From: Gemmatimonadaceae bacterium
Lineage (GTDB): Bacteria; Gemmatimonadota; Gemmatimonadetes; Gemmatimonadales; Gemmatimonadaceae
Direction of reading: 5' to 3'
NCBI GenBank assembly: GCA_035606695.1
Contig: DATNEW010000016.1
Location: forward strand, 1 to 64,000
Length of the DNA stretch: 64,000 bases
The notes below the pieces were generated by a model, which was given only the letters and a program-made list of their open reading frames with translations, was not told where the DNA came from and searched no databases. Positions 3,819 through 45,565 of this stretch are shown in pieces. The number at the start of each line of letters is the position of its first letter. The first letter of the stretch is position 1. Both the position numbers and the translations under genes were made by a program.

Positions 3819-4713
3819 TTTGTCGGACGTTGAGCGTCGGCATTTGCACGATGGCGTACGTACCTGACGCCACACCGATCCCTGCCTGCTGCATGGCCGC
3901 GAGAATCTCGCGGCTCATGGCGTCCTTGAGAACGCGTACGCCGCGCGGATAGGCAACGAAGCGCAGCGACAACTCCTGCCAATTGTCCGTGAGACGCAGG
4001 AACACGCGCGGCTCGACGCTCGGGTCTTCGCTGAGAAAATACTTGCCGCGCAAGTCGCTCAACTGCCTGGTCGCCTCGGCCATGATGCTCGCGGTGTGCT
4101 TGTGCGCCGTCTCGAGAAGAATGCGCTCGACGACGCGATAGTCGTCGCTATAGGCGATCGGGATGGCCATCTCTTCCCACATGAACGGGAAGTCGCGCGT
4201 GTAGTTGTAGACGGGAACGTCGAAGATCTTGTCGTTGGTGATCCGCACGAGCCGTCCCGAATACTGCCGGCCGTGTACCCACATCGACGGGTCGTCTTCT
4301 TTCTCGCCGGCCGCCTGGCTCATTTCCATCACCGTCGTCTGCATGAAGCCGAGTGCGATGACGTCGCCGCGTACGCCGCCGATCATGATGCGGTCGCCGA
4401 CCGTGAAGATGTTTCCGCGCAGAATGATCAGATACCCGGCGAATGCCGTGACGACGCGCTGCAATGCGATCGCCAGGCCGGCCGCGATCCAGCCGCCGAT
4501 CATCGCCAGCTGGCTCGATGCGCTGAACCAGATCGCGAGCACGACGATCACGAGTCCGGCGAGCGTCAACAGATGCGTCGCCTGCGCGATCCAGAAGCGC
4601 GAGCGATCGCGCTTCTTGTTCTGGAGCGCCATGTGTGCGAGGCCGCGAATGAGCGCGGCGCCGATGAGAATGGCGGCGACGAGCCCGACGGTCAGCAGTA
4701 GCTTGGTTATCAC
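3811..4713 (-). CDS. Small-conductance mechanosensitive channel, MscS family
   Basis: A 300-residue protein with three hydrophobic N-terminal segments. The third is the pore-lining helix (MIGGWIAAGLAIALQRVVTAFAGYL), followed by the MscS beta domain (GNIFTVGDRIMIGGVRGDVIALGFMQTTVMEM), whose GDxV/I-x-IGG pattern is typical. The C-terminal alpha/beta domain is present to the end. It would open on hypo-osmotic shock in the inner membrane. The start codon is GTG at 4713. It is convergent with the esterase gene (8-bp overlap). Confidence 0.88.
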   Translation of the reverse strand: MITKLLLTVGLVAAILIGAALIRGLAHMALQNKKRDRSRFWIAQATHLLTLAGLVIVVLAIWFSASSQLAMIGGWIAAGLAIALQRVVTAFAGYLIILRGNIFTVGDRIMIGGVRGDVIALGFMQTTVMEMSQAAGEKEDDPSMWVHGRQYSGRLVRITNDKIFDVPVYNYTRDFPFMWEEMAIPIAYSDDYRVVERILLETAHKHTASIMAEATRQLSDLRGKYFLSEDPSVEPRVFLRLTDNWQELSLRFVAYPRGVRVLKDAMSREILAAMQQAGIGVASGTYAIVQMPTLNVRQIT

Positions 4714-37404: not shown

Positions 37405-37541
37405 GCACGGGTTCGCTCGGGAGCCTGCACAAAGATTCCTCTACCGGGCTCCCATAGTATCCAGCCCAACCCCGCGGCCACGGCGCGCGTAGATAGGGTG
37501 TCCAACCACCCAACTACGTACCCTCCGAACCCGGGTTGATC

Positions 37542-40500
37542 GTGTCTCCCCGTCGTTTCCTATACGCCCTCGCGATCGCGGCGATCGCACTCGTCGCCCC
37601 GCGCGCTTCATTGTTCGCGCAGGATGCCGACATCATTCGCGGCCGCGTCGTCGGCCCAGACAAGAAGCCTGTCGAAAACGTCACCGTCACCGCGACGTCG
37701 CTCGTCAGTCAGACGTCGCGCACGGTAAAGACGAACAAGGATGGCCGCTTCTCCATCATCTTCAGCGGCGGCGGCGGCGATTACATGATGGCCTACACCG
37801 GCATCGGCTTTCAGCCCACGCGGTTCGAGGTGAAGCGCGAGATCGACGAAGACATTCTCGTCGCCGACGCATCGATGTCGAAGACCGCGGTGACGCTCGA
37901 GGCGGTGCGGGTCAACGCCGGCCGCCAACGTCCCGATCAGAACGGCAACGCGCTCGACGCCGGCAGTCGTGAGCAATCACTCAACACGGCGAACATGCCG
38001 CTCGACGTGCTCGGCGATCTCTCGGCGATGGCCGCGACGCTGCCGGGCATCACGCTCATCCCGGGCTCGGACGGCGCCGCGAATCAATTCTCCGTCCTCG
38101 GACTCGGCGGCGATCAGAACAACATCACGCTCAACGGCCTGAACTTCGGCTCGAGCGATCTGCCGCGAGACGCCACGACACAAACGCGCGTCACGACCTC
38201 CACGTTCGACCCCTCGCGCGGCGGCTTCTCGGGCGCGCAGATCTCGTTGCGCACCACCAGCGGCACCAACTACAAGGTGCGGTCCATCCATCAAACGGTG
38301 GACGCGCCGAGTCTCCAGTACACGGACGCGATCGGTCGCCAGCTCGGCCAGCAATTCACGAACTTGCAATTCAGCGGCAACGCGGCGGGCCCGTTCACCT
38401 ACGACAAGGCGTTCTACTCGTTCTCGTGGCAGGTGGGACGCCGCGCGAACAACCTTCAGGATTTGCTCAACACCGATCCGCTCGCGCTTGAGCGCGTCGG
38501 CGTGTCGGCCGATTCCGTGGCGCGCCTGCTCACGATGCTCAGTGGTCTCAACATCCCGACGTCCACGTCGGCGATTCCGAGCCAGCACCTCACGCAGAAC
38601 GGCTCGTTCCTCTCGTCGTTCGACTTTGCGCCGAGTGGTGGGCACAACTACAACGTCACGCTGAGTGGCCGGTGGAACGGTCAGGACGCCACGAGCCTCC
38701 AGACGACCGCGGTGCCGATTCACGGCGGCGAAACGCAGAACTACGGCGGCACGCTGCAGGCGCGTCACTCGGCGTACTTCTTCGACAACTTCCTCGATCA
38801 GACGAGCGGCTCGTTCCAGGTCTCCAAGTCTCAGGGCGATCCGTACGTCGAGTTGCCCTCCGCCAGCGTCCGCGTGAACTCCACGTTCGCCGACGGAAAC
38901 GCCGGCGTGTCGAGCCTGGTGTTCGGCGGCAACACCGGACTGCCGCGCAACTCGGTGACGACGAGCGGCGAATTTCAGAACGAGCTGTCGTGGATCAGCC
39001 TCGACAATAAGCATCGCTTCAAGTTCGGCCAGGACTTCCGCTACAATCGCTACTCGCAGGACAACACGACGAACCGCTTCGGCACGTTCGTCTACAATTC
39101 GCTGTCTGATTTTCAGAACGGCATTCCGGCGAGCTACAGCCGCCGTCTGTTCGTGAATCGCCGCCTGGGTGACGATCTCGGTGCGTCGGCGTGGCTCGGC
39201 GACGCGTATCGCCGCACGCCGCGTCTGCAGATCACGTACGGCGTGCGCCTCGACGGCTCGGACTTCCAGGGCAATCCGCAGTTCAACGCACAGCTCGATT
39301 CGGTCTTCGGCAAGCGCAACGACGCGGTTCCGCGCGGCCTGTACGTGAGTCCGCGCCTGGGCTTCAGCTGGACGTACGGGACCAATCCGCAGATCGGCGG
39401 GTTCGAGGGCGCGTTCCGCGGTTCGCGCGGTCAGGTTTCCGGCGGAATCGGCGAGTTCCAGAATCTTCCGAACTCGCAGCTCATCGCCGGCGCGGTCGAT
39501 CAAACCGGCCTGCCAAACGCGGCGCAGCAATTGAGCTGTGTCGGCGCGGCGGTGCCGGTTCCGAACTGGATCGATTACCTGCAGAGCACGGGCTCCATTC
39601 CCACGACGTGCGCCGGCGGGACGACGGCCTTCTCGAGCACGGTGCCGAACGTCACCTTGTTCGCGCCGGACTACATCCCGCAGCGCAGCTGGCGCGCGAA
39701 TCTCCAGTGGAACGCGCCGGTGCTCAACAACCGCTTCCGACTCTCGAGCGGCGCGACGTATTCACTGAATTTGAATCAGCAAAGTCAGATCGATCTGAAC
39801 TTCGACCGTGTCGCGCGGTTCACGCTGCCGACGGAAAACCGGCCGGTCTACGTGAATCCGACCAGCATCATCCCGGTCACCGGCTCGATTCTGTCGCGCG
39901 ACGCGCGCGTCACGCAGAGTTACGCGCAGGTCACCGACTTCCTGTCCGACCTCAAGTCGCACAGCTCGCAGTTGTCGTTCGGTGTCTCGCCCATCGCGTT
40001 CAACTCGTCGTTCCAGTGGAACCTGACGTACATCTGGCAGAAGGTGACGGCCGAGACGCGCGGCTTTGGCGGCGGCACGACGGCCAGCGATCCCTATCTC
40101 ACGCAGTGGGCGCGCGCCAACGGCGACTGGCGCCACCAGTTCACCTACACCCTGGGCTACACGCTCAAGCAGGCGGTCAGCTTCACGGCGTTCGGCCGGG
40201 TCCAGTCGGGCAATCCGTTCACACCGATGGTCTCCGGCGACGTGAATGGCGACGGCTACAACAACGACCGCGCGTTCGTCTACGATCCGAGCAAGACCAG
40301 CGATGCGACGCTGTCCTCCGCGATGCAGAATTTGCTCAACACCGCGCCGTCGTCGGTTCGGGACTGCCTCAAGAAGCAGCTCAACTCCGTCGCGGGCATG
40401 AACAGCTGCGAGGGCCCGTGGTCGACGAGCTTGAGCCTGCGCGTGTCGTTGATCTCGCAGGCGATGAAGGTCGTTCCCGATCGCGCCACGATCTCGCTCG

Positions 40501-41213
40501 GCATCGCCAACCCGCTCACCGGGCTGGACGCGCTGATCCACGGATCGAACAACCTGCACGGCTGGGGCGCGCCGTCGTTCACCGATCCGAACCTGCTGTT
40601 CGTGCGCGGCTTCGATCCGGCGACCAACAGCTACAAGTACGACGTCAATCCACGCTTCGGCGCCAACCGTCAGGCGAGCGCGCTCAATCTCGCGCCGATG
40701 CAGCTCACGCTCGACGTGCGCGTCGACGTTGGACCGGAACGCGAACGCCAGGATCTGTTCCTGCGCCTGCGCGGCGGCCGCGGCGGCAAGGGCAACAAGG
40801 CGAGCGAGCAGCAGCTCAAGCAGCAGTACATTCGCAGCTATCCGAATCCGTTCGAGCAGATGCTGCGGCAGCAGGATTCGCTGCAGTTGAGCGACAACGT
40901 CGCCGACAGCATCGCCATCCTGAACAAGACGTACGGCAAGGTCATCGACTCGATCTGGACGCCCGTCGCGAAGTATCTCGCCGGCCTGCCCGAGAAGTAC
41001 GACCTCGACGAAGCCTACACGCGCGTGAGCGCGGCGCAGAACAAGTCGTTGGATGAGATGTCGATCTACGGTCCCGCGGCGAAGCAGCTCCTCACCGCCG
41101 AGCAGATTCGGAAGTTGCCGGCGTACATCGCGCTGTTCCTGGACAACCAGGCGATCCGCCAGGTGCGGCCGGGTCGCGCGGGCGGCGGTCGCGGAGGCTT
41201 CTTCGGGGGCTGA
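37542..41213 (+). CDS. TonB-dependent receptor with carboxypeptidase-regulatory-like N-domain
   Basis: A 1223-residue outer-membrane receptor. Signal peptide (SPRRFLYALAIAAIALVAPR), then a CarboxypepD_reg-like domain (IIRGRVVGPDKKPVENVTVT, through GRFSIIFSGGGGDYMMAYTG). A plug domain has LGDLSAMAATLPGITLIPGS and NNITLNGLNFGSSDLPRDAT. The rest is beta-barrel. The last 150 residues, beyond the barrel, are helical and end in LTAEQIRKLPAYIALFLD followed by a Gly/Arg-rich tail; the LTxxQ pattern resembles Spy/CpxP. GTG at 37542 is chosen; TTG at 37536 is an alternative. No TonB box was identified. A terminator follows. Confidence 0.85.
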   Translation: MSPRRFLYALAIAAIALVAPRASLFAQDADIIRGRVVGPDKKPVENVTVTATSLVSQTSRTVKTNKDGRFSIIFSGGGGDYMMAYTGIGFQPTRFEVKREIDEDILVADASMSKTAVTLEAVRVNAGRQRPDQNGNALDAGSREQSLNTANMPLDVLGDLSAMAATLPGITLIPGSDGAANQFSVLGLGGDQNNITLNGLNFGSSDLPRDATTQTRVTTSTFDPSRGGFSGAQISLRTTSGTNYKVRSIHQTVDAPSLQYTDAIGRQLGQQFTNLQFSGNAAGPFTYDKAFYSFSWQVGRRANNLQDLLNTDPLALERVGVSADSVARLLTMLSGLNIPTSTSAIPSQHLTQNGSFLSSFDFAPSGGHNYNVTLSGRWNGQDATSLQTTAVPIHGGETQNYGGTLQARHSAYFFDNFLDQTSGSFQVSKSQGDPYVELPSASVRVNSTFADGNAGVSSLVFGGNTGLPRNSVTTSGEFQNELSWISLDNKHRFKFGQDFRYNRYSQDNTTNRFGTFVYNSLSDFQNGIPASYSRRLFVNRRLGDDLGASAWLGDAYRRTPRLQITYGVRLDGSDFQGNPQFNAQLDSVFGKRNDAVPRGLYVSPRLGFSWTYGTNPQIGGFEGAFRGSRGQVSGGIGEFQNLPNSQLIAGAVDQTGLPNAAQQLSCVGAAVPVPNWIDYLQSTGSIPTTCAGGTTAFSSTVPNVTLFAPDYIPQRSWRANLQWNAPVLNNRFRLSSGATYSLNLNQQSQIDLNFDRVARFTLPTENRPVYVNPTSIIPVTGSILSRDARVTQSYAQVTDFLSDLKSHSSQLSFGVSPIAFNSSFQWNLTYIWQKVTAETRGFGGGTTASDPYLTQWARANGDWRHQFTYTLGYTLKQAVSFTAFGRVQSGNPFTPMVSGDVNGDGYNNDRAFVYDPSKTSDATLSSAMQNLLNTAPSSVRDCLKKQLNSVAGMNSCEGPWSTSLSLRVSLISQAMKVVPDRATISLGIANPLTGLDALIHGSNNLHGWGAPSFTDPNLLFVRGFDPATNSYKYDVNPRFGANRQASALNLAPMQLTLDVRVDVGPERERQDLFLRLRGGRGGKGNKASEQQLKQQYIRSYPNPFEQMLRQQDSLQLSDNVADSIAILNKTYGKVIDSIWTPVAKYLAGLPEKYDLDEAYTRVSAAQNKSLDEMSIYGPAAKQLLTAEQIRKLPAYIALFLDNQAIRQVRPGRAGGGRGGFFGG

Positions 41214-41250
41214 GCGCGCGTAGCTCGGTGTTCTCTGCTTGAACTTGTGA

Positions 41251-41283
41251 AACGGCCGCTCGTTCCGACGAGCGGCCGTTTTT
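41251..41283 (+). terminator. Rho-independent terminator after the TonB receptor
   Basis: A perfect 12-bp stem AACGGCCGCTCG pairs with CGAGCGGCCGTT around a six-base loop, followed by TTT. It ends the receptor transcript. Confidence 0.85.
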
Positions 41284-41623: not shown

Positions 41624-41803
41624 TTGAAACGCTTCATCCTGAACGGGCTCGCGCTCGTCGTCATCGTCGGCGGCGCCAGTGAGCTCAAGGCACAGACCGA
41701 GATCTCCGCATGGCAGGCGTGCTGCTACGCGAAGATCACGAACGTGAAATGTTGCGGGGCAACCTGCGACGCCGGGTGGTTCCAGTGCAGCGCATCCACG
41801 TGA
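41624..41803 (+). CDS. Cys-rich secreted peptide, paralogue 1
   Basis: A 59-residue peptide started by TTG at 41624, with GGAGGT seven to twelve bases upstream. The Sec signal (MKRFILNGLALVVIVGGASE, then LKAQ) is followed by a ~35-residue mature part with six cysteines spaced CC-x8-CC-x3-C-x6-C and ending GWFQCSAST. The other two paralogues share the spacing exactly. It would be exported and folded by three disulfides. It is 33 bp from the next copy. No known family is recognised; bacteriocin, toxin, signalling or envelope roles are all possible. Confidence 0.78.
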   Translation: MKRFILNGLALVVIVGGASELKAQTEISAWQACCYAKITNVKCCGATCDAGWFQCSAST

Positions 41804-41836
41804 TCGGCTCGTTCACTTCAACCACACGGTGATTCC

Positions 41837-42019
41837 ATGAAGCGCATGATCATCAACGCCGTGGCCACGCTGGTCGTGGTCGGCGGCGGCGCCGCTCGTC
41901 TCATGGCGCAGTCGGAGATCCTCCCGCCCGCGTGCTGCCACACGGTGTTCACCAGCGCCACCTGCTGCGGCGACACGTGCGAGTCGGGTTGGTTCAACTG
42001 CTCCGCTCAATCGAAGTAA
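41837..42019 (+). CDS. Cys-rich secreted peptide, paralogue 2
   Basis: A 60-residue peptide. The signal peptide (MKRMIINAVATLVVVGGGAA, then RLMAQ) precedes mature SEILPPACC, CCGDTCESGWFNCSAQSK. Same six-Cys spacing as paralogue 1 and 3, with GWFNCSA identical to paralogue 3. Weak GGTGA lies about five bases before the ATG. It is 33 bp after paralogue 1 and 74 bp before paralogue 3, suggesting one transcript. Confidence 0.82.
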   Translation: MKRMIINAVATLVVVGGGAARLMAQSEILPPACCHTVFTSATCCGDTCESGWFNCSAQSK

Positions 42020-42033
42020 CACTCCATCCACCC

Positions 42034-42070
42034 GCCTTCGGTTCGCCGGCCCTGCGCCGGAAGCGAAGGC
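42034..42070 (+). promoter_or_regulatory. Hairpin between peptide genes 2 and 3
   Basis: GCCTTCG (42034-42040) pairs with CGAAGGC (42064-42070), and an inner CCGG pairs with CCGG, giving a stacked stem-loop in the 74-bp gap. The T-run after it is weak. It could stabilise or attenuate the transcript and set different amounts of the peptides, which is inference only. Confidence 0.45.
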
Positions 42071-42093
42071 TCTTTCATTCGTGAGGCTGACCC

Positions 42094-42276
42094 ATGAAGA
42101 AGCAGATCCTCATCAATACGCTCGCCGCCATGGTGATCTCGGTCGGCGCGTATCAGACCGCGCTCGCCGACGAGATTGCACCAACGCATCAGGCGTGTTG
42201 CAGCACGATCTTCACGAGCGCCGTCTGCTGCGGCAACTCGTGCTCGTCCGGCTGGTTCAACTGCTCGGCGACGTAA
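42094..42276 (+). CDS. Cys-rich secreted peptide, paralogue 3
   Basis: A 60-residue peptide. The signal (MKKQILINTLAAMVISVGAY, then QTALA) precedes DEIAPTHQACC and CCGNSCSSGWFNCSAT. Cys spacing is the same CC-x8-CC-x3-C-x6-C. GAGG lies 8-11 bases before the ATG. Signal peptides have diverged more than the Cys framework across the three copies, indicating selection on the mature peptide. A DsbA-like gene follows after 114 bp. Confidence 0.82.
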   Translation: MKKQILINTLAAMVISVGAYQTALADEIAPTHQACCSTIFTSAVCCGNSCSSGWFNCSAT

Positions 42277-42390
42277 TCGCCGGCTGATGCTTGACGGGCG
42301 GTGCGCCGAACGTGGCGCACCGCTCACGCCGCCGCCCACGCCACGCCACGCACACCACCCGAGCTCGTTCCCTTCATCTCATCGCTGTGG

Positions 42391-43125
42391 ATGCCTCTTA
42401 TGCCTCGATCGAACTTCGACCGTCTGTCCACCGCCTTCACCGCGGTGCTCGTCGCCTGCGCGCTGACCGTCACCGGCATGATGGTTCGCCGCGAATTCTT
42501 CCCGCCGGTGCGCGCCGCGGCGCCGGTCTCCCTTCCACCGCTCGACGTCTCCGCCCAGTGGGACGAGCTCACGTCGCACGGCACCGTCATCGGCTCGCCG
42601 TCGGCGCCAATTCGCGTCGTTGAATTCTCCGACTTTCAATGCCCCTTCTGCGCGAGCGTCCAAAGCACGCTGCGCACCTTGCGCCAGCGGAATCCGTCGC
42701 GCGTGGCCATCGTGTTTCGCAACTATCCGCTGTCGAACATCCACCCCTTTGCCCGTCAGGCGGCCACCGCCGCGGCCTGCGCCAACGAGCAACTGCGCTT
42801 CGAGGCCTACCACGACAAGCTGTTCGCCCAACAGGATTCCATCGGCATCAAGCCGTGGGCACAATTCGCGAAAGAGGCCGGCGTTCCCGACCTGCGCGCG
42901 TTCGAGACGTGCGTCGGGCGCGCCCCGTTTGACGCCGACGTGCAGCGCGACGTACAATTGGGTCAACGCATCGGTGTGAGTGGGACACCGACGATCGTCG
43001 TGCAAGGCCAAATGCTCCGGGCCGCACCAACGCTCGAGACGATCGAAAAGATGATGGCGGCCGAAGCGCCCGCGGCGAAGCGTGTGTCGGCTGTACCGGT
43101 CGCGGCTGTACCGCCGCGGAACTAA
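42391..43125 (+). CDS. Membrane-anchored DsbA-like thiol oxidoreductase (thioredoxin fold)
   Basis: A 244-residue protein with one N-terminal helix (about residues 14-32) as anchor or uncleaved signal. The thioredoxin-fold domain has FSDFQCPFCASVQ with the active site CPFC (84-87), NYPLSNIHPFARQAATAAAC and the cis-Pro loop GVSGTPTIVV. It is of the DsbA/DsbG-like Thioredoxin_4 type, facing the periplasm. The ATG at 42400 is an alternative start. Directly downstream of three Cys-rich peptide genes, it is a plausible disulfide catalyst for them. The ADOP permease follows after 28 bp. Confidence 0.85.
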   Translation: MPLMPRSNFDRLSTAFTAVLVACALTVTGMMVRREFFPPVRAAAPVSLPPLDVSAQWDELTSHGTVIGSPSAPIRVVEFSDFQCPFCASVQSTLRTLRQRNPSRVAIVFRNYPLSNIHPFARQAATAAACANEQLRFEAYHDKLFAQQDSIGIKPWAQFAKEAGVPDLRAFETCVGRAPFDADVQRDVQLGQRIGVSGTPTIVVQGQMLRAAPTLETIEKMMAAEAPAAKRVSAVPVAAVPPRN

Positions 43126-43153: not shown

Positions 43154-45565
43154 ATGATGCGCAGCGTCTACGACGATTTCCGCCTCGCGATCCGTCTGAT
43201 GATGAAGTCGCCGGGATTCAGCCTCGTGGCGATCTTCTCGCTGGCGATTGGAATCGGAGCCAATCTCACGGTGTTCTCGCTGGCCAACGGCCTGTTGTTG
43301 CGCACGTTGCCGGTGCGCGATCCCGCGACCGTCATCGAGATCTATGAAACGACGGGCGGCGATTATCGGCCGCTCTCGTACCCCGACCTCGCGCAGTACC
43401 GAACGGCACGCTCGCTGCGCGGGGTCGCGGCATATAGCGTCACGAATTTCGCTGTCGGAAGCGGCGCCGCGACACAACTCCACGCCGGCGCCTTCGTCGA
43501 CAGCAATTACTTCGCGCTGCTCGGCGTGGCGCCGATCGCCGGCCGCGATGTGCTCGGCAACAGCGAGCTGACACAGACGATGATCAGCACGCGCTTGGCT
43601 CGCGAGCTGTTCGGCACGGTCGATCGCGCGGTCGGAAGTTCGGTCACGGTCAACGGACGCGTGTTGAGCATCGGCGGCGTGCTGTCGCCCAAGTTCCAGC
43701 CGATCTTCGGGCTCTCGACGGATATCTTCGTGCCGCTCAGATCGAGAGCGACGCTCGAACCGGCGGCGCCACGGCTCGACGATTTCCTCGCGACGGGAAT
43801 GCAGGCCGTGGCTCGCACCACATCGAACGATGCGGGCCGAGTCGAGCACGAGCTCAATCTGATCGCCAAGCAACTCGACGCCAGCGCTCCGCGGCCGGGA
43901 CGCACGGCGCTGCCGCGGCGCATTCGCGTCGCGCAAGCGAGCGTGCTCGCACCGGGAGCGCGCGTCCCACTGACGGTGATCGCGCTGCTGATGTTCGTGG
44001 TGACGGGCCTCGTGCTGCTTCTGGCGTGCACCAACCTCGCGAATCTCCTGCTGTCGCGTGCGTCGGCTCGCCGGCGCGAGCTTGCGGTCCGCGCGGCGCT
44101 CGGTGCAACGCAGGCGCGCATCGTCCGCCAGCTCGTCTTCGAAGCCTTGGTGCTCGCGATGGCCGCGGGAGTCGCCGCCGTCCTTCTGGCGAACGCCGCG
44201 ACGGTAGGACTGCTCGCGCTCCTCCCGTCGGCGCCGTCGGGCCTGCTCGTGCCCGTGACGCCCGACGCGCGCATCATTCCCGCCGCCACGCTGTTCGCGG
44301 GCGTCGCCGCGCTGCTCTTCAGTCTCGGACCCGCGTTGAGCGCGACGCGCTACGATCTCGTCAGCGGACTCAAAGACTCGGGCGCCGGCTCGGGAATCAC
44401 CATTGGACAGATTCGTAATCGCCGGCGCCTGGTCGGCGTACAAGTTGGCATCACGACGGTGTTGCTCGTCACCGCGGGGTTGTTCGTGCGCAGTCTCGGC
44501 GCCGCTCGCGGGATGGACGCCGGCTTCGCCGCGGAGCGCGTCCTGTTGGCGACCGTCGACGTCAGTCGCCGCTTCCCGACTCCCGACGCGGGACGTCGCG
44601 CGTATGACGAGTTGCTGACACGGCTTCGTTCAGACGATGGCGTGCGAGATGCGTCGATCGTGCAGCGCGTCCCGCTCGACTTCGGCAATCAGGCGACCGT
44701 CTTTGCGGCCGCGGGTGGCGCTCCGATGGTGCGTCATGGCGCGGCGGATTGCAACATCGTCGGCACGCACTACTTCGCGACGATGGGGATTCCACTGCGC
44801 GCCGGGCGGGACTTCTCATCGGACGGCGGCGCGAACGAGGTAATCGTGAACGAAACGCTCGCGCGCAAATTCTTCCCACAGGGCGCGATCGGAAATCGTA
44901 TCGCCGTGCGCGGCGACGAGACCAGGTGGCTCGAGATCGTCGGCGTGGCGCGCGACGGCAAGTACCGCACGCTGACCGAAGCGCCGCAGCCGTTCATCTA
45001 TCTGCCGCACGCCGGCTCCTACGCCGGCGAGATGACCGTCGCGATCGCGACGCGCGGCGATGCGCGGAGCGCGCTCGCACTGCTTCGTGGCGCGGTGACT
45101 CGCGTCGATGCGAACATTCCCGTGTACCAGGTACGAACGGCCGACGATCATCTGCGCGCGGCACTGTTTCCGGCGCGCATGGCGGGCATTCTCCTCGGCA
45201 CGCTTGGCTCGTTGACGCTGGTGTTGGCGGCACTCGGTATTTACGGTGTCATGTCGTACGGCACACAGTTGCGCCGTGCCGAGATTGGTTTGCGGATGGC
45301 GCTGGGCGGTGAGGCGCAGGATGTGATGCTGCTCGTGGTGCGACAGGGAATGGCGCCGGTGGGATTCGGTATGGCGGCCGGTGTCGTGCTCGCCCTCCTG
45401 GTATCGCGCGGCATTCACGGTTTCCTCTACGGCATCACACCGATGGACCCGATTACATATGCCGGCGTCGCGGCGGTGATCGTCGTCACCGCGGTGCTTG
45501 CGTGTCTTCTGCCGGCGTGGCGTGCAACACGCATGTCGCCGTCCGTGGTGTTCCGCGAGGCGTAG
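43154..45565 (+). CDS. ADOP-type (MacB-like) orphan ABC permease
   Basis: An 803-residue permease of the acidobacterial duplicated orphan permease family. It opens with FRLAIRLMMKSPGFSLVAIF and the first helix SLAIGIGANLTVFSLANGLL, followed by a MacB periplasmic domain, three FtsX helices, a second periplasmic domain and three more helices ending PAWRATRMSPSVVFREA. FtsX/MacB proteins transmit ATPase strokes to export peptides or lipoproteins, but ADOP genes lack their own ATPase. A family that moves peptides or antibiotics next to the peptide cluster is suggestive. A terminator follows. Confidence 0.85.
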   Translation: MMRSVYDDFRLAIRLMMKSPGFSLVAIFSLAIGIGANLTVFSLANGLLLRTLPVRDPATVIEIYETTGGDYRPLSYPDLAQYRTARSLRGVAAYSVTNFAVGSGAATQLHAGAFVDSNYFALLGVAPIAGRDVLGNSELTQTMISTRLARELFGTVDRAVGSSVTVNGRVLSIGGVLSPKFQPIFGLSTDIFVPLRSRATLEPAAPRLDDFLATGMQAVARTTSNDAGRVEHELNLIAKQLDASAPRPGRTALPRRIRVAQASVLAPGARVPLTVIALLMFVVTGLVLLLACTNLANLLLSRASARRRELAVRAALGATQARIVRQLVFEALVLAMAAGVAAVLLANAATVGLLALLPSAPSGLLVPVTPDARIIPAATLFAGVAALLFSLGPALSATRYDLVSGLKDSGAGSGITIGQIRNRRRLVGVQVGITTVLLVTAGLFVRSLGAARGMDAGFAAERVLLATVDVSRRFPTPDAGRRAYDELLTRLRSDDGVRDASIVQRVPLDFGNQATVFAAAGGAPMVRHGAADCNIVGTHYFATMGIPLRAGRDFSSDGGANEVIVNETLARKFFPQGAIGNRIAVRGDETRWLEIVGVARDGKYRTLTEAPQPFIYLPHAGSYAGEMTVAIATRGDARSALALLRGAVTRVDANIPVYQVRTADDHLRAALFPARMAGILLGTLGSLTLVLAALGIYGVMSYGTQLRRAEIGLRMALGGEAQDVMLLVVRQGMAPVGFGMAAGVVLALLVSRGIHGFLYGITPMDPITYAGVAAVIVVTAVLACLLPAWRATRMSPSVVFREA

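Follow-up and report, generated by a model that had tools for sequence, protein, structure and literature searches.

The NVEALA small proteins (PF14055) of Bacteroidetes are cysteine-rich exported peptides encoded near propeller and thioredoxin-like genes. Peptides of the CS-alpha-beta type (defensin- or scorpion-toxin-like) are likewise small, secreted, and cysteine-rich. The E. coli heat-stable enterotoxin STII is exported by Sec, receives its disulfides from DsbA, and leaves the cell through MacAB-TolC (PMC5985334). The stretch of DNA analyzed here (the window; 64,000 nucleotides) carries three tandem genes for small cysteine-rich precursors, and a gene for a DsbA-like thiol oxidoreductase lies directly downstream on the same strand.

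The initial annotation had described the trio as a tandem array of secreted six-cysteine peptides, and all three open reading frames were confirmed at that place and on that strand. Peptide 1 (41624-41803, + strand; signal ~41624-41692, mature part ~41693-41800; family HMM E = 1.2e-23) is a 59-residue precursor with a TTG start and a GGAGG sequence ~8 nt 5′ of it. Peptide 2 (41837-42019, + strand; signal ~41837-41908, mature part ~41909-42016; E = 5.8e-24) and peptide 3 (42094-42276, + strand; signal ~42094-42168, mature part ~42169-42273; E = 2.6e-21) are 60-residue precursors with ATG starts. Each precursor combines a basic amino terminus with a hydrophobic core and an A-x-A or L-x-A site, and its mature part is ~35 residues long; the Sec-type assignment comes from a simple hydrophobicity rule rather than a trained predictor. 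The CC-x8-CC-x3-C-x6-C core is identical in the three peptides and all of them end in GWF[QN]CSA, so the annotated spacing is exact within the trio. These features are consistent with secreted, probably disulfide-rich products. Fold modeling, which the annotation had suggested, returned an AlphaFold model of low confidence (pLDDT 62).

Peptide 3 is 54% and 46% identical to the other two peptides. The pN values (0.29-0.42) are lower than the pS values (0.49-0.59) in each window pair, as expected of translated genes, with the pairs close to saturation. The pattern CC-x8-CC-x3-C-x3-W-x2-C occurs three times in the window and only five times outside the source genome in 395 genomes of the phylum, four of the five in plainly repetitive DNA. 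This rarity, together with the true homologues of looser spacing in 10 other genomes, excludes a chance origin of the trio. One relative (G122, contig C2) appears frameshifted, as would be seen if the open reading frames were untranslated or decaying copies. That explanation is very improbable considering that pN stays under pS throughout the trio and in almost every other pair (a single core comparison excepted), that the cysteine cores are conserved across three taxonomic families, that a ribosome site precedes peptide 1, and that gene order is conserved. The proposed constraint on the cysteine core is supported. The accompanying claim that the signal diverges more than the cysteine part is true of one window pair, marginal in a second, and false in the third, and a leader of the form M-[KRN]-R-x-x-L-N-x-L-A...GG is conserved family-wide.

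The gene upstream of the trio encodes a TonB/CarboxypepD_reg receptor, an outer-membrane barrel (37536-41213). It is probably a separate unit because a strong Rho-independent terminator hairpin with a T tract lies 3′ of it, between the receptor and peptide genes (41250..41283, + strand; −28.9 kcal/mol, z = −3.2; terminator-like scan match at 41260). A stable RNA hairpin occupies the gap between peptides 2 and 3 (42034..42070, + strand; −22.7 kcal/mol, z = −3.0), and a hairpin with a 12-bp stem that follows peptide 3 and precedes the DsbA gene (42295..42325, + strand; z = −1.5) is not significant against shuffles. These two intergenic hairpins could keep expression of DsbA below that of the peptides.

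The DsbA-like thiol oxidoreductase (42391-43125, + strand; start at 42391 or 42400) has an N-terminal hydrophobic segment as a membrane anchor and an SGTPT cis-proline loop, and the CxxC active site reads CPFC in the translation. It matches Thioredoxin_4 (PF13462; E = 1.4e-24, 87.6 bits, cut-off 23.2) and DSBA (PF01323; E = 3.1e-18, 66.7 bits, cut-off 25.6). The next gene (~43154-45565, + strand) encodes an ADOP duplicated MacB-like permease that scores 667.2 bits against TIGR03434 (NCBIfam cut-off 622.3) and contains two MacB_PCD and two FtsX stretches with no ATPase domain in Pfam. An ADOP gene occupies the same position in locus L304. ADOP genes are very common, with at least 63 over the NCBIfam cut-off in the 5.9-Mb source genome (63 of 159 candidates were scored), so adjacency to one is weak evidence.

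Searches with the trio sequences returned no homologues. Single-sequence searches in 98 relatives gave only chance matches (E > 0.005), and a trio-only search of GTDB 220 genomes and viral contigs gave no match with GWF-based patterns too narrow to catch the homologues found later. Among the 120 stretches listed by the GTDB pattern scan, none combined a convincing signal peptide with a paired cysteine core, and they were judged to be chance occurrences. Plasmids gave no peptide match, and no family match came from 36 genomes outside the phylum, a small set searched with no positive control. The route to the family was the oxidoreductase: DsbA homologues were located in 59 and then 300 genomes of the phylum and the neighborhoods around them were read. 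Genome G206, among the closest DsbA loci, encodes a peptide that shares the leader of the trio and has a CC-x6-CC-x4-C-x6-C core. An HMM built from four sequences (the trio and G206) detected members in G416, G111, G129, and G182 as well as an apparently degenerate copy in G122, a 13-row HMM added G246, G120, and G125 together with a relative in G093 that matches in the leader only, and reading behind propellers added G386 and G325. E-values outside the source genome reach 6e-26 for G206, which is in the model, and 1.5e-18 for G416, which is not.

The homologue search that the annotation had called for thus ended in a conserved family of 21 intact members in 11 genomes including the window (18 of them in 10 further genomes of this phylum) and one apparently frameshifted copy, with 19 distinct sequences in alignment A6. 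The family is spread over kinship groups f1, f5, and f6. The phylum is probably Gemmatimonadota, as the best matches to ADOP on plasmids come from Gemmatirosa. Its spacing is looser than that of the trio, and the invariance noted in the window does not extend to the family: loop 1 spans 2-9 residues, loop 2 spans 3-4, and loop 3 spans 6 (7 once). The f5 branch has extra tail cysteines that were gained as a pair. Two or three tandem copies are present at the locus in seven genomes. In G122 (contig C2 ~3856-4002; L307/L316) the copy appears frameshifted after CCGDKCES, with the rest of the core in another frame, and DsbA was not found in the 16 kb around it.

Two gene orders recur. G416 has the order of the window, with three peptides followed by DsbA and ADOP, and seven genomes (G111, G246, G129, G182, G125, G386, and G325) have one to three peptides followed by an NHL propeller and DsbA. 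The propeller was identified by a match of one representative to a PDB NHL sequence (E = 4e-15). In G120 the peptide lies beside a propeller and DsbA was not found in 18 kb. Two tandem family peptides precede the propeller and DsbA in G386 (L332 8055-8594) and G325 (L333 11489-12161), and the DsbA relatives of these two genomes are among the closest to the window DsbA. In G129, a second cysteine peptide (L306 5931-6167; CC-x8-CC-x2-CC-x5-C-x2-C) is encoded downstream of that DsbA.

NHL propellers and TonB-type receptors are the recurrent genes beside the DsbA, and in most relatives one of these, not a permease, is the third gene. This recurrence, and the placement of the propeller between peptides and DsbA in the eight-cysteine branch and in G386 and G325, would suit a model in which the peptides belong to a surface complex (an NHL propeller lipoprotein or a TonB/CarboxypepD_reg receptor), as its ligands or as small subunits in the periplasm or outer membrane, with disulfides serving stability only. 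The small subunit of methylamine dehydrogenase needs a MauD-type partner and offers a parallel for such an arrangement. We regard a surface-complex role as possible but less likely than not, because framework variation is far above the expectation for a fixed subunit, the tandem copies (two or three) have diverged, and no propeller was found within 20 kb around the window or on the 13-kb G416 contig.

The strong part of the case is the linkage between peptides and DsbA. Of 80 usable loci (DsbA homologues with BLAST scores of at least 105 bits), 34 have a small Sec-like open reading frame upstream on the same strand that encodes four or more mature cysteines. The background frequencies are 31/6040 (0.5%) for random segments, 2/84 for the opposite strand, and 3/2400 for shuffles. 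Remoter DsbA homologues have an upstream cysteine peptide in 5 of 19 cases, and in about a dozen of the remaining DsbA loci the peptide is one gene further upstream. No peptide was detected beside many DsbA relatives, which counts against reading the locus as a cassette. A tree of 104 DsbA homologues separates an outer clade with 1/17 linked from an inner clade with ~50/82 linked, which includes the window DsbA. The linkage label is clustered on this tree, a quick one with many weak branches, to a degree reached by none of 500 shuffles.

The linked mature peptides differ greatly in framework, with cysteine numbers ranging from 4 to 11, and the CC-CC-C-C arrangement of the trio is just one of the many found beside this DsbA clade. 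The source genome itself carries additional modules, on contigs C24, C26, and C31, whose peptides are quite different. On C24, a Sec-type peptide encoded divergently from a further DsbA copy (L212 9821-10042) has the arrangement C-x7-CxxxC-x9-C-x9-CxC, which is the CS-alpha-beta defensin order. The initial annotation was borne out on probable secretion, the cysteine core, and the lack of a known family, and it missed the adjacent DsbA-like gene, the conserved gene order elsewhere, and the many frameworks beside one DsbA clade.

Cysteine number is even in 41 of 42 linked peptides selected by a fixed rule (p ~1e-11 under random parity, a value made optimistic by kinship among the 42), which fits disulfide pairing. 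The few far open reading frames that pass the same rule have mostly odd counts. CC pairs are common in metal peptides, and the cysteines could bind a metal or metal cluster in a metallothionein- or chaperone-like periplasmic peptide. This is improbable given the even counts, a Sec-type leader that would direct the peptides to an oxidizing compartment, the adjoining DsbA-type gene, and the finding of no metal transporter or regulator among the genes adjacent to the window peptides with Pfam and NCBIfam. Conservation of the family, its tandem duplication, its adjacency to the DsbA clade, and the even cysteine counts are established by this analysis.

The reading we favor, with somewhat better than even confidence, is a cassette of disulfide-rich peptides and a dedicated periplasmic oxidase, with the peptides most likely acting as exported effectors or ligands. 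Secretion, disulfides, export through the ADOP, and any toxin role are inferences. The signal sequences suggest that Sec would carry the three paralogous precursors to the periplasm, where, by established biology, the leader would be removed to leave mature peptides of ~35 residues. The membrane-anchored DsbA-like protein would then oxidize the six cysteines to three disulfides, as gene linkage, the CPFC motif, and cysteine parity suggest, and the folded peptides would act outside the cytoplasm. The MacB-type ADOP may help them across the outer membrane by analogy with STII, a weak step because ADOP lacks an ATPase domain and is present in so many copies (at least 63) in the source genome. With leader and enzyme kept, the cores vary from copy to copy, framework to framework, and genome to genome, a pattern that suits a set of diversifying peptides better than a housekeeping component and argues for an effector or recognition role. 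Secreted effectors or ligands for inter-bacterial antagonism or surface recognition are a plausible form of this role, one we hold at somewhat less than even confidence.

Recurrence in distant relatives with many cysteine patterns points to what may be an undescribed class of folded bacterial peptides. A broader and tentative proposal is that such modules are phylum-wide, each joining one conserved membrane-anchored DsbA-like clade to highly diversified Sec-exported disulfide-rich peptides, with dozens of frameworks and several modules per genome. Such modules would parallel, in bacteria, the peptide sets of venoms or defensins, with folding enzymes of their own. Disulfide-rich peptides encoded with an oxidase would amount to a large and unexploited source of stable peptides in a phylum with few cultured members, and the neighboring enzyme would allow them to be produced and folded directly. 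Peptide-DsbA linkage provides a simple finding rule for products whose shortness and variability defeat annotation by homology.

The annotation had placed the cysteine order outside known families, and the profile comparisons agree. The trio and family peptides have no credible match in Pfam, NCBIfam, or PHROGs (the Pfam scans covered 49 linked peptides, picked partly by eye, and 13 family members), no PDB family covers them, and the linked peptides with varied frameworks share no common Pfam or NCBIfam family. Weak Toxin_3 and Gamma-thionin matches (E ~0.006) appeared in one of the 49 scanned peptides, probably the C24 peptide with the CS-alpha-beta order. No description of such peptides in this phylum was found in titles and abstracts of the open-access literature. 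The neighborhood logic of NVEALA proteins is possibly similar to that of the peptide-DsbA modules, and NVEALA was rejected as the family since the same 49 and 13 sequences gave no Pfam match. The CC-CC-C-C order of the trio is neither the C...CxxxC...C...CxC order of CS-alpha-beta defensin-like peptides nor, judged on cysteine order, the C-C-CC-C-C order of the knottin or inhibitor cystine knot. STII-type secretion by MacAB-TolC does not fit the locus, because the ADOP consists only of MacB_PCD and FtsX domains and no MacA or TolC gene was recognized among the adjacent genes examined. The locus differs from STII in having no sequence family match and in the adjacency of the peptide, oxidase, and permease genes, and it shares with the STII pathway a predicted small Sec-type disulfide peptide, a DsbA-type oxidase, and a MacB-fold permease domain nearby. 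The trio would at most work like STII or defensin-type secreted peptides.
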